This document shows, in pieces, positions 10,339 through 62,292 of a DNA stretch of 64,000 nucleotides. Source of the stretch: Armatimonadetes bacterium 55-13 (GTDB lineage Bacteria > Armatimonadota > Fimbriimonadia > Fimbriimonadales > Fimbriimonadaceae); assembly GCA_001898035.1 (NCBI GenBank), contig MKRX01000006.1:434436-498435 (forward strand), read 5' to 3'. The notes under the pieces were generated by a model that ran no database searches, had not been told where the DNA came from, and saw only the letters and a program-made list of their open reading frames with translations. Position 1 is the first letter of the stretch. Every line of letters starts with the position of its first letter. Position numbers and translations under genes: made by a program.

Positions 10339-10352
10339 CAACCGAGGAAGTG

Positions 10353-10373
10353 GCATGGGCGGCCCGCCCATGC
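10353..10373. repeat. Solitary copy of the dispersed CATGGGCGG palindrome
   Basis: Arms GCATGGGCGG and CCGCCCATGC flank one central C. The 19-base core (CATGGGCGGCCCGCCCATG) is identical to the palindrome in the tandem array at 61101-61349, 51 kb away. It lies in the gap between two plus-strand genes. Confidence 0.8.
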
Positions 10374-13200: not shown

Positions 13201-14500
13201 CCAAGGCCAGCCCATGCAGGGCCAAGTCCAAGCCGGAAGCCTGGAAGAAGCCAACCGCGCCCTCACCCAACAAGGCTATCGAGTCTCCGACCTGCGAGAA
13301 TCCAACCGCCTCGCCCCCAACGCCCCTTCTCCATCCCCCAACGCCCAGCGCCCAGTAGCCAATGCTCCTTCCATAGCGCCCAACGCCCAACGCCCAACGC
13401 CCAACGCCCAACACATCAACACCCCCGCCCCCAAACCCAAGCGCCACAGGGTCAAAACCCGCTACGGGACAGAAAAGGACACCTTCTTCCTGTTCTCGCA
13501 ACTCGCCGCCCTCTTCAAGTCCGGCGTGAATGCCTCCCAAGCTTTCCACGACCTCGGCATGCGCAACCGCCGCTCCGACTATCGCGAAGCCATGATGGAG
13601 GTCTCAAGAAACGTCATTGAAGGCGGCAGCATCGCCGACACTCTCGAACGCTATCCCTACCTCTTCGCCCCCCACGTCGTCGGAACCGTCCGCGCCGGCG
13701 AGGTCGGTGGCTATCTCCCGGAAGCCTTCGAGACCATTTCCAGCCAAGCCGACTCGTCCCGAAAGTTCCGCCGGTGGTTCGTCTGGCTCGGGTGGGCTGT
13801 CGTCAGCGTCCTGATCTGCGTGCCCATCGGTAAGGCGTTCACGGACGGTGCCGTTAATAGCTGGGATGTCCAAGAGAAGTCAGGTGGAATGGCCCCCGGT
13901 GGCGCAACCCTACTCGCCCAAATCTGGCAATTGATCAAGTGGCCCATTGGCCCCCTTACCATCCTCGTTACGCTCATCTTCATCGCGGTGTCCTACATCT
14001 GGCAGTCGATGCGTTTCCGCGAGTTGCGGCACCGACTGGTCCTCCTCGCGCCCGCCGCCACCAAGCGAGCCAAATCAGAATCCTTCGCCGCCTTTTCCTG
14101 GAACCTGTCCAATCTCGCTCGCTCGGGCATCGCCCCCCATCGGGCATGGGAACTCGCCAGCGCCACCGTCCCGAACCAAGCCATCCGCGCTTCTCTAGAT
14201 GCCCAGGGCGCGCAAATGACGGAGCAGACCAAACTCTCCGAAGCGCTCTTTAACACACGCATGATCCCGCACGAGTACTCCGCGCTCGTCCAAACCGGCG
14301 AGATCACCGGAGACGTCCCCGGACAGCTCATGCAAGCCGCCCGAATGTCGCAAGATGAATTCGGAATTCACGACAAAATGGCCAAGGGACGAGTCGGCTG
14401 TTGGATCCTTATCGTCTCTTTTGGCATCGGGACCCTCGTCATCTACGCTCTTTACGGAGGCTTCTGGACGAAGTTAATCCCAAAGATCATAGGAGAATGA
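13169..14500 (+). CDS. Type II secretion/type IV pilus inner-membrane platform protein (GspF/PilC family), copy 1
   Basis: The start used is the ATG at 13169 (MPFFQFTATNSQGQPMQG), which fits the family's N-terminus better than an upstream ATG at 13112. Residues 1-45 form the usual small N-domain. A low-complexity Pro/Asn/Gln linker (about 50-95) is encoded by heptanucleotide repeats. Then follow GspF domains 1 and 2, with membrane segments near 205-225, 270-290 and 410-430 and the FETISSQADSSRKFRRW helix. Such proteins anchor the pilus or pseudopilus assembly ATPase. A second GspF-like gene starts 38 bp downstream. No GspE, pilin or PilM-Q gene is in the window. Confidence 0.88.
   Translation: MPFFQFTATNSQGQPMQGQVQAGSLEEANRALTQQGYRVSDLRESNRLAPNAPSPSPNAQRPVANAPSIAPNAQRPTPNAQHINTPAPKPKRHRVKTRYGTEKDTFFLFSQLAALFKSGVNASQAFHDLGMRNRRSDYREAMMEVSRNVIEGGSIADTLERYPYLFAPHVVGTVRAGEVGGYLPEAFETISSQADSSRKFRRWFVWLGWAVVSVLICVPIGKAFTDGAVNSWDVQEKSGGMAPGGATLLAQIWQLIKWPIGPLTILVTLIFIAVSYIWQSMRFRELRHRLVLLAPAATKRAKSESFAAFSWNLSNLARSGIAPHRAWELASATVPNQAIRASLDAQGAQMTEQTKLSEALFNTRMIPHEYSALVQTGEITGDVPGQLMQAARMSQDEFGIHDKMAKGRVGCWILIVSFGIGTLVIYALYGGFWTKLIPKIIGE
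13335..13411 (+). repeat. Translated heptanucleotide tandem repeat (CGCCCAA)
   Basis: Positions 13377-13411 are five exact CGCCCAA units. Degenerate 7-bp units extend left to about 13335. Three units make 21 bp, so the protein shows a 7-residue period beginning with NA (NAPSPSP, NAQRPVA, NAPSIAP, NAQRPTP). Units of this kind resemble the short tandemly repeated heptamers of cyanobacterial genomes. Confidence 0.8.
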
Positions 14501-59427: not shown

Positions 59428-60186
59428 TTACTTCTTATTGCGTCGGCGTCGAATCAAACCCAACGCACCCAGTCCAAGCGCCGCCATGGAAGCAGGCTCC
59501 GGAACCGGGTTGGCTCGCGACGTGAAGGTCACGTCATCGATAGCCAATGCGTGGTCATTTCCAGAATCGTTGAGGTCCGTCCACTTGATCCACAGGCTAG
59601 AGCCAGCCGTCCAGACAGAAGACAAGTTAACCATGTCGTTCAGAGTGGTTCGATTCGCCGCGGCATTGCCATTCAATGCGCCCGCCGTAGTGGTGTGAAT
59701 CGGGCCTGTAAAGTCCAAGCTGGTAACCGAAGTCCAGGTACCCGTCGTGAGAGATGTTGCGTCCAGCGAGTAAGCAAAGCTCAACTTCTGAGCGGTTGCG
59801 TTACCGCCGTTGCGCCACTGTTCGCCGGTGTACTGCAAAACGAAGAAGTCTGCGTCTCCGCCCATCAAATTGACGAAATTAGCACCGTAGATCATATCTC
59901 CTGCGCTGTTGGATCCGACCGAACCCAATGCTCGCTCGTTATCAGTAGAGGCAGAACCGTAGCTATGAACGCCACCCGTCGTGCTCGTTCCAGAGTCGGC
60001 AATATAGGTCGTCTTGTTCGCGTACCAGCCGAGCAACGTGCTGTTGTCTGTCCAAGTATTCGAAGTGCCGGTCATCGCCAGAGTGTTGAAGTCTTGGCTG
60101 TAAGTACCACCCGAATAACTAACCTGAGCCATCGCGGCGCTGATCAGGCTCAGAGAGCCAACGCCGATAAGTGCAATTCGCTTCAT
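59428..60186 (-). CDS. PEP-CTERM sorting-domain protein
   Basis: The start at 60186 gives [20 protein letters not shown], a clear signal peptide; an ATG 6 bp upstream is also possible. The 252-aa protein is Ser/Thr/Gly-rich and beta-rich ([20 protein letters not shown]). It ends with the PEP-CTERM tripartite signal: VPEPAS, a hydrophobic segment ([12 protein letters not shown]) and a basic tail (RRRRNKK). The tail is cut by an exosortase and the protein is released or anchored at the surface. No exosortase gene is in the window. Confidence 0.93.
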
Positions 60187-60405
60187 ACGCATTCTCCAAT
60201 TCAAGACACGGCAACCCCAGCGTCCACCGATTCCTGACAATAATAGCAGTCAAGAACCAAAGTAAAAACTGATAATTTTGCCTATATCGTATTTTCCCGA
60301 TCGAACGGACCTGCAAATACACGCCCGTCCGTCCCAGAAGATAAAGACAATCTACAGGCCCAAAGTTAAGATGGTGTTAGCGACCAAGGCAACCCGTATT
60401 TCTAC

Positions 60406-61083
60406 CTATACAAGTACAGGATCGTCCATGCCAAGTTCCGCAAAAGCGTTCTTCCTCAGAATGCAAGAATCGCATCTTCCACAGGCTCGACCATTTGGCA
60501 ACGGATCGTAGCAAGAGTGCGTCATCCCGTAGTCCACACCCAACGAGAGCCCCCGCTCGATGATCTGTACTTTGGTCAGCGCGATCAAAGGAGCGTGAAT
60601 GCGCATCCGCTTCCCTTCCACCCCCGCCTTCGTGGCAAGCTGCGCCAAGTGCTCAAAAGCGGCAATGTACTCCGGTCGGCAGTCTGGGTACCCGCTGTAA
60701 TCCACCGCGTTCACCCCCACAAAAATGTCCGTCGCCCCCACCACTTCCGCATAGCCCAACGCCAGCGAAAGCATCACCGTGTTACGAGCAGGCACATAAG
60801 TGATCGGAATATCTTGCATCGCGGATTCATCGCGATCCTTCGGAACGTCCAGCCCCGAGTCGGTCAAAGCCGAGCCTCCCAAGGTGTCGAGGTTCACCGA
60901 AACAAACCGATGCTCCGTCGCCCCCAAAGCCGCCGCCACCCGCACCGCCGCATCCACCTCCACCTGGTGCCGCTGTCCATAAAGAACGGACAAAGCATAA
61001 ACATCAAACCCCAGGTCTCGAGCAACCGCCAAAACCGTAGCCGAGTCCAACCCACCACTCAAAAGGAGCACGCACTTAGGCAT
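60406..61083 (-). CDS. queC: 7-cyano-7-deazaguanine synthase
   Basis: QueC makes preQ0 from 7-carboxy-7-deazaguanine for queuosine (or deazapurine DNA) synthesis. The 225-aa product has the PP-loop [13 protein letters not shown] (S9-G-G-x-D-S) and the C-terminal zinc site [19 protein letters not shown] (four cysteines). The length is standard. No queD, queE or queF gene is adjacent, and I see no preQ1 riboswitch upstream, where the 70-bp repeats begin 18 bp from the start codon. Confidence 0.95.
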
Positions 61084-61100
61084 AAACCCATTATCCCCAA

Positions 61101-61349
61101 GCCAAGGAGCGTATCATGGGCGGCCCGCCCATGAACTCCGCCGCTCACCACCAACCCAAAATCCCAACAAGAAAAGGAGCGTATCACGGGCGGCTCGCCC
61201 ATGAAGTCCGCCGCCCACCACCAACCCAAAATCCCAACAAGCCAAGGAGCGTATCATGGGCGGCCCGCCCATGAACTCCGCCGCTCACCACCAACCCAAA
61301 ATCCCAACAAGCCAAGGACCGTATCCTGGGCGGCCCTCCCAGGAACTCC
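61101..61349. repeat. 70-bp tandem repeat array with internal palindrome
   Basis: Three 70-bp units (61101-61170, 61171-61240, 61241-61310) and a 39-bp partial fourth unit. Each has GCGTATCATGGGCGGCCCGCCCATGA, shown here as a palindrome with arms TCATGGGCGG and CCGCCCATGA, then a C/A-rich spacer. Unit 4 has TCCTGGG/CCCAGGA, where both arms changed together. The region 61350-61428 beyond it holds no gene, only a weak hairpin remnant. The 345-bp gap 61084-61428 therefore contains only this array. Confidence 0.9.
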
Positions 61350-61428: not shown

Positions 61429-62292
61429 CTACGCGCTCACCGCTTCTGGCTCGCGCTCGTAATCCCCCGCCATGATCCGCTCGAACGCCCCGCTCAGCAC
61501 CCAGCGCTCAAGCTGCTGCGTGCGGTGGACCGGCATCGGGTGAGAATAGGTCCCCGTCTTAGAAAGGAAGATCAAAACCTTGCCCAGTTCGTCCATGATC
61601 GACGTGTCCTGATAAGCCCGCGCCTGTTCCATGAACGCTTCGCGGCTCTGTTCGCCACGCAACCGCGTCGGCCCCGCCGTCAGCGCAATGTTCGCGTCCA
61701 CGCTGATGTCCAGCGATTGCGAAACCAAAAGCCCCGCCCGGTCCGCCGTAATTTCTGCTTGGCGAGACCACTCCTCATAGGCCAAGATCAGCCCGATCGT
61801 CGCCACATCTCCCAACCCAAACGTTCGCCGACCAATCATCTCCAACAATGGGAACAGCACCGCGCCCACCGACTTGTAAAGCACATGCTTCGCCTTGATG
61901 TGCCCCAACTCGTGCCCAATTAAGTGGAAAAGCTCCTCGTCCGTCAACGTATCCACAATCGAGGACCGAAGCGTGATATACGGCCGCTCCACCCCGCTCG
62001 TCCAAGCATTCGGGAAGGGGTTGCTCGTCAAGTACAACTCCGGCTCCGGCATGTCCAAAACCGCTGCCGACTCGCGCATGATGTCGTAAAGCGTCTTGTA
62101 CTGCGTCGGCCCACATCGAACCGACATGCTCATGTTGTAGCAATAGAACCAGCGGTCCAGGCCAAGCTCATAGAACTTCTGAATCACCTGAGGAAGTAAG
62201 GGAATTCGCTTCAGCTTATCAAGCGCCCATCGGTCGGTATCCGCAATGAACGCCTCGGCGGCGATGCCTTCGAAATGCTTGCGCGTGGCCAT
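61429..62292 (-). CDS. M48-family metallopeptidase
   Basis: The 287-aa protein has the zinc motif HLIGHELGHIKAKHV (HExxH, about 122-136), with a second site in EITADRAGLLV (about 182) whose glutamate is the third ligand. The N-terminus (LKRIPLLPQVIQKFYELGLD) is typical of the small soluble M48 family (HtpX/Oma1-like core, here with few membrane segments). It probably degrades misfolded membrane or envelope proteins. The start at 62292 lies 43 bp downstream of the LacI gene end on the same strand, so they may be cotranscribed. Confidence 0.9.
   Translation of the reverse strand: MATRKHFEGIAAEAFIADTDRWALDKLKRIPLLPQVIQKFYELGLDRWFYCYNMSMSVRCGPTQYKTLYDIMRESAAVLDMPEPELYLTSNPFPNAWTSGVERPYITLRSSIVDTLTDEELFHLIGHELGHIKAKHVLYKSVGAVLFPLLEMIGRRTFGLGDVATIGLILAYEEWSRQAEITADRAGLLVSQSLDISVDANIALTAGPTRLRGEQSREAFMEQARAYQDTSIMDELGKVLIFLSKTGTYSHPMPVHRTQQLERWVLSGAFERIMAGDYEREPEAVSA

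Follow-up and report, generated by a model that had tools for sequence, protein, structure and literature searches.

In the 64,000-nucleotide stretch of DNA from Armatimonadetes bacterium 55-13 that we analysed (hereafter the window), queC (60406..61083, minus strand) lies downstream of a gene for an M48-type peptidase (61429..62292, also on the minus strand and codirectional with queC; the family name comes from a reading of the sequence). Most of the 345-bp gap between them is occupied by a tandem array that lies about 15 bp from the start of queC and, sitting between the two genes, is extragenic. Elsewhere in the window, a perfect 7-bp tandem repeat (CGCCCAA, 5.1 copies) is found at 13377-13412, and a predicted protein with a PEP-CTERM-like C-terminus is encoded on the minus strand at 59428-60240. 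Tandem Repeats Finder places the array at 61098-61349, with a period of 70, 3.6 copies and 91% matches, so that the 70-bp tandem repeat described in an earlier note on this DNA is real and ends where it was said to end, but begins three bases before the proposed 61101.

The array consists of four direct units on the plus strand: unit 1, a REP hairpin plus spacer of 70 bp (61098..61167), unit 2 (61168..61237), unit 3 (61238..61307), which is 100% identical to unit 1, and a partial unit 4 (61308..61349). The 23-nt REP of unit 1 (61111..61133) has GTAT as its foot, followed by a stem of 8 bp that closes a 3-nt loop, and the remaining units carry their REPs at 61181-61203, 61251-61273 and 61321-61343. 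The core TCATGGGCGG-C-CCGCCCATGA is exact in units 1 (61114-61134) and 3 (61254-61274), with its counterparts in units 2 and 4 at 61184-61204 and 61324-61344; nine matches to it within three mismatches occur in the window, against none across 100 dinucleotide shuffles. The earlier note had credited every unit with the palindrome, which holds exactly for units 1 and 3 but not for unit 2, where a T to C change in the left arm (61187) is uncompensated. It had also seen matched changes in the two arms of the fourth unit. One pair there has indeed changed in a compensated manner, from A-T to C-G (61326/61342), but pairing is not kept throughout, a G to T change at 61337 disrupting an inner stem pair. 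With one covarying pair set against two pair-breaking changes, the array by itself makes a weak case that the hairpin is under selection.

Beyond the array, the full 70-bp unit, spacer included, was not found elsewhere in the 4.5-Mb genome, but the palindrome itself recurs. The pattern GGGCGNNNCGCCC has 35 sites in the genome compared to nine for the reversed control, and exact 23-nt hairpins with a GTRG foot, under a search pattern that leaves three stem pairs free, number 20 dispersed copies compared to one for the reversed control. A single dispersed copy, GTGGCATGGGCGGCCCGCCCATG, lies in the window itself (10350..10372, plus strand). The aligned sites share a common plan, namely a GTGG or GTAG foot ahead of a stem of 8 bp with a loop of 3 nt, often within a longer outer stem. 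Two copies folded as DNA (z about -7) have an inner stem of 8 bp and an outer one of 10 or 11 bp, and the 4-nt bulge that separates the two stems is exactly the foot. REPs rank with the commonest bacterial repeats, and 20 is a low copy number for a REP family. Judged on open frames, most copies lie outside long ones, the exceptions being those that flank the embedded transposase genes described below. Inverted doublets also occur (e.g. C15:391703 with 391724). Separately, we note a second tandem REP array at C11:185860-186251, with four units of about 125 bp and GTAG/GTGG feet (L061:2200-2800), and a further one at C26:252392/252566.

The arms of these hairpins covary. Counting distinct sequences in this genome, the window's own included, cells changed on both sides of the stem number nine, as opposed to 2.9 in shuffled data, and order-wide, across 44 distinct sequences, they number 31 as opposed to 10.2; in neither case did any of 500 shuffles reach the observed value. 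Because the family is dispersed in the genome and its arms covary, the REP hairpin fold is maintained or regenerated. The earlier suggestion of selection on the hairpin is supported genome-wide, where the covariation is strong, and a core restricted to this locus, or unpaired changes in its other copies, is not what the genome holds. In consequence, the REP reading of the array stands, and within the REP class the array is nothing unusual. It is not a BIME, to which the earlier note had also likened it, for its four units are direct repeats in identical orientation and not REPs in alternating orientation.

How did the array come to lie upstream of queC? QueC orthologs are present in 76 of the 81 family genomes. 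In three relatives (L150, L162, L163) the M48 gene and queC are adjacent, with matches some 20-30 bp apart and no REP between them, and a search of up to 500 bp upstream of queC for a GGGCG- or GGTCG-type hairpin recovered none in the 29 relatives examined. Given these empty sites, the array is most simply read as a lineage-specific insertion between the M48 gene and queC that was later amplified.

One feature sets the array apart from the rest of its family: all four units have a GTAT foot, whereas the REPs of this genome have GTAG or GTGG. The GTAT foot need not be decay, because GTAT-footed hairpins form a regular class of 35 copies in a relative (G014). Each of nine such copies that we read there follows one base behind a GTGG hairpin (two of these being slightly altered), yielding a composite of about 47 bp made up of a GTGG-REP, 1 nt and a GTAT-REP (L291-L300); one more is found in G064. 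The window units are without the GTGG half of this composite. In characterised systems the foot helps to choose the dinucleotide at which the REP is cleaved, with GTAG directing cleavage to CT and, in one system, GTGG to CC (PMC8266576). As changes at the third and fourth foot positions abolish cleavage of the Stenotrophomonas maltophilia REPs (PMC8266576), the array units may be inert. By analogy with those systems, the GTAT units would be either retargeted or inert.

A RAYT gene, which the earlier note had suggested looking for, is present. The genome has seven matches to Pfam PF01797, and two of these (C27:22663 and C6:736461) have REPs of this family in inverted orientation on either side (C27:22315/22958 and C6:736352/737016) with feet pointing outward, that is, they form REPtrons, RAYTs flanked by REPs. 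Both are contained in long open frames, of 800 and 1085 codons, respectively. The first cassette (G000:C27:22308-22977; L060:1509-2178) lies in frame inside carB, where Pfam domains run from carbamoyl-phosphate synthase domains 1 and 2 through the transposase (Y1_Tnp) to domain 3; the second (G000:C6:736345-737035; L062) lies in frame inside a gene for a GH38 glycosidase, which the transposase domain (Y1_Tnp) splits. Against the NCBIfam model NF047646 (REP_Tyr_transpos, cut-off 80) the carB insert scores 83.6 bits and the GH38 insert 78.9, just under the cut-off. The NHVH and Tyr motifs are conserved in these RAYTs, and the nearest solved structure is 4ER8, TnpA-REP.

Comparison with relatives makes the insertion in carB plain. 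In most other genomes of the family carB is uninterrupted at this site, with, for example, RGLEVKQKDLRHAKF followed directly by AEVSDEDLKQAIKKPTDERLW, and in G023 matches to residues 1-408 and 638-785 of the carB frame are only 3 bp apart; in this genome (G000) about 229 codons separate RGLEVKQKDLRHAKF from AEVSDEDLKQAIKKPTDERLW. We did not find an uninterrupted copy of this CarB half in G000, the sole copy found being the one that carries the insert. The site coincides with the border at which domain 2 gives way to the oligomerisation domain. Insertions at a shared site are seen in three genera for carB and in two species for GH38, the second GH38 case being a same-genus MAG, ES-bin-173 (L133, L263). 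In the carB of G062 (L144) we observe a diverged in-frame RAYT remnant that keeps NHIH and an open frame, has lost the Tyr motif and, as far as its sequence goes, shows decay. In G017 the carB linker that takes RAYTs in other genomes has an insertion of some 70 residues that is unrelated to them (L182).

REPs and RAYT also go together across genomes: at least three of these REPs are present in seven of 12 genomes that have a close relative of this RAYT compared to nine of 101 others (p = 0.00016). Three REP-rich genomes (G056, G096, G111) gave no strong match to this RAYT.

Residence in long frames is concentrated in this RAYT and its closest relatives. Across 113 genomes of the order, frames of 450 codons or more contain nine of the 14 matches closest to this RAYT, compared to one of 134 more distant matches (p = 3e-10); as a control, five of 76 QueC matches lie in frames at least twice the length of the gene. 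Hosts in the order comprise carB (two sites), GH38, alcohol dehydrogenase and metH, along with C-terminal fusions to prmC and a TetR gene. Scanning one genome per species with a RAYT alignment returned 80 loci from Planctomycetota, Verrucomicrobia, Acidobacteria, Chloroflexales, Gammaproteobacteria and others (L211-L290). In 49 of the 80 the RAYT is embedded, with at least 100 codons before and at least 60 after it in one frame, a fraction that is not a population frequency because embedded or fused copies make up 10 of the 13 rows in the query alignment and the set is biased towards these. Beyond the order the hosts include valS (two sites), leuS (two), alaS, ispG (two), metH, Sua5 and a FabA-like gene, as well as hsdR, Eco57I-type and other DNA methylases, a helicase and a TPR protein. 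The embedded set includes sequence of 43-50% GC. GTRG-footed REPs lie within 250 bp of 26 of the 49 embedded copies, compared to one of 49 control stretches. Errors in metagenome assembly might produce such fusions spuriously, but this cause is ruled out by cultured isolates among the carriers, Roseibacillus persicicus KCTC 12988 and Rubritalea marina DSM 17716, whose embedded copies lie in metH. That RAYTs are embedded in frame in essential genes is, on the sequence evidence, well supported as an anatomical fact. From sequence alignment we would expect the inserts to sit in loops or linkers of the host enzymes; an AlphaFold2 model of an IspG-RAYT chimera, built from five sequences, reached a pLDDT of 41 and was discarded.

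Whether embedded RAYTs descend with their hosts or enter the same genes repeatedly is a separate matter, on which the evidence is mixed. A tree of 34 RAYTs separates two groups (98/99), with little resolution inside them. For a pair of valS hosts (L216/L221) RAYT and host show matching levels of synonymous difference, which fits vertical descent. For an ispG pair (L242/L249) the RAYT has a pS of 0.76 as opposed to 0.54-0.62 for the host, so that the RAYT looks older than the gene in which it resides, which does not fit vertical descent. Four Eco57I-type or similar restriction-modification hosts (L254, L272, L276, L290) are 28-51% identical, and the RAYTs near one homologous place in them are 57-66% identical; vertical descent does not easily give a RAYT identity above that of the host. 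On balance we favour repeated insertion at sites that tolerate it, some lineages retaining the RAYT by vertical descent.

We read the array as a set of REPs mobilised by a RAYT partner, with the in-frame copies in carB and the GH38 gene as the candidate RAYTs, and assign this reading a probability of roughly 0.78. One REP would have entered the M48-queC gap in this lineage and would then have been duplicated in tandem together with its spacer; the empty sites and the identity of units 1 and 3 are observed, and the order of events is reconstructed from them. As partner we consider a RAYT likely. This HUH tyrosine transposase would recognise the folded single-stranded REP and, if the biochemistry of other RAYTs is a guide, cut at a dinucleotide chosen by the foot (PMC8266576). 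For the two candidates, each with inverted REPs of this family on either side, we expect translation as an additional domain, placed in a loop or linker of the host enzyme, which would protect the embedded transposase from loss. The two embedded RAYTs probably move these REPs.

This arrangement invites comparison with other in-frame elements. Rickettsia palindromic elements are likewise in-frame palindromic insertions tolerated by essential proteins; they are not known to carry a transposase, whereas the in-frame inserts here include one. Inteins with homing endonucleases resemble the RAYTs here in placing a selfish enzyme in frame in conserved essential genes and in recurring at the same sites, but here there is no splicing domain, and we expect the protein to retain the insert in a loop or linker. 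Close in design is the REPtron of S. maltophilia (REPSm plus TnpA-REP), which follows the same plan of a tetranucleotide, an 8-bp perfect palindrome and a 3-nt loop in 23 nt, and in which the RAYT lies between REPs, as here (PMC8266576); the differences are the foot (here GTGG/GTAG, and GTAT in the array), a RAYT of another subfamily, and its position in frame in host genes. The GT[AG]G foot of this genome's dispersed REPs is shared with the GTAG-tagged REP superfamily (PMC3733652), and the NHVH, WQ and YxxxNP motifs of the RAYTs here resemble TnpA-Y1 subclass 2.7 (PMC6006769). REPs in frame inside genes have already been described (PMC3733652), as have REPs inside tnpA-REP genes without loss of frame in subclass 2.4 (PMC6006769). 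In these systems only short REPs, encoding up to 82 aa, are intragenic, as opposed to a whole REP-RAYT-REP cassette of about 650 bp here; unexpectedly long proteins were set aside as fusions or annotation errors (PMC6006769). In the literature searched, which leaves most subscription papers and preprints outside, we came across neither whole REP-RAYT-REP cassettes in frame in host genes nor transposases in frame inside synthetase genes. The in-frame embedded RAYTs are well supported as anatomy and would be new to the REP-RAYT system, intragenic REPs alone being already known.

Imagine instead that the in-frame RAYTs had been domesticated as host domains and were no longer mobile, the REPs being relics. 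Low dN/dS in the RAYTs (0.08-0.11 in four pairs, by Nei-Gojobori counts) is what one would see in such a case, and the same-site insertions in carB and GH38 and the diverged G062 copy, its frame kept after loss of the Tyr motif, point the same way. Against this, the NHxH (HUH) motif is intact in 49 of 49 embedded copies and the Tyr motif in 47 of 49, the host genes are many and unrelated, and the restriction-modification hosts are less alike than the RAYTs they carry. We regard domestication as unlikely, if far from negligible. Rather improbable, too, is that the array is kept for a hairpin role in the M48-queC transcript, through attenuation, stabilisation or processing, the RAYT having only seeded it. 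The array does lie between two codirectional genes, and one full 70-bp unit, folded as single-stranded DNA, is more stable than shuffles on both strands (z -3.1 and -2.8). But units 2 and 4, with their broken pairs, are barely more stable than shuffles (z -1.3 and -1.1), no terminator-like site and no Rfam match were found in the array, and the array is absent upstream of queC in the 29 relatives; of the part in mRNA processing that the earlier note allowed for, no test that we ran gives support. A plain minisatellite with a chance palindrome would account for the uncompensated changes in units 2 and 4 and for a single compensated pair, which template switching inside the hairpin, not selection, could have produced, but as a full account it is contradicted by the dispersed copies of the palindrome, by their covariation and conserved foot, and by the RAYT genes that accompany them, and we consider it very improbable; template switching may still be the way in which paired changes arise. 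Removal of the embedded segment after transcription or translation, as an intron or intein, deserves hardly any credence: essential genes are among the hosts, as with many inteins, but searches of Pfam and NCBIfam returned no intein domain for the fusions scanned, the two of G000 among them, no intron family was found in the loci scanned, and an element spliced from RNA would have no need of the frame.

Returning to the reading of the array as REPs mobilised by an embedded RAYT, we tentatively propose, at a little short of even odds, that in-frame REPtrons pursue a mobile-element lifestyle of their own. They would insert into loops or linkers of essential enzymes while preserving the frame, be expressed from the host promoter as a domain of a chimera, be shielded from loss since frameshifts would kill the host gene, and re-invade the same spots, their REPs, such as those of the array, spreading in trans: an intein-like parasite without splicing. 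That the RAYTs are mobile, that they act in trans on the array and that the host frame protects them is what we infer from these patterns. To the open question of how RAYTs, as single-copy genes, manage to persist, the in-frame subfamily offers a testable answer, namely that the reading frame of the host gene, be it an aminoacyl-tRNA synthetase, CarB, MetH or IspG, both protects and expresses the transposase. If this is true, essential enzymes in several phyla would carry a transposase domain, and the resulting chimeras would sit unrecognised in annotation pipelines and protein families.
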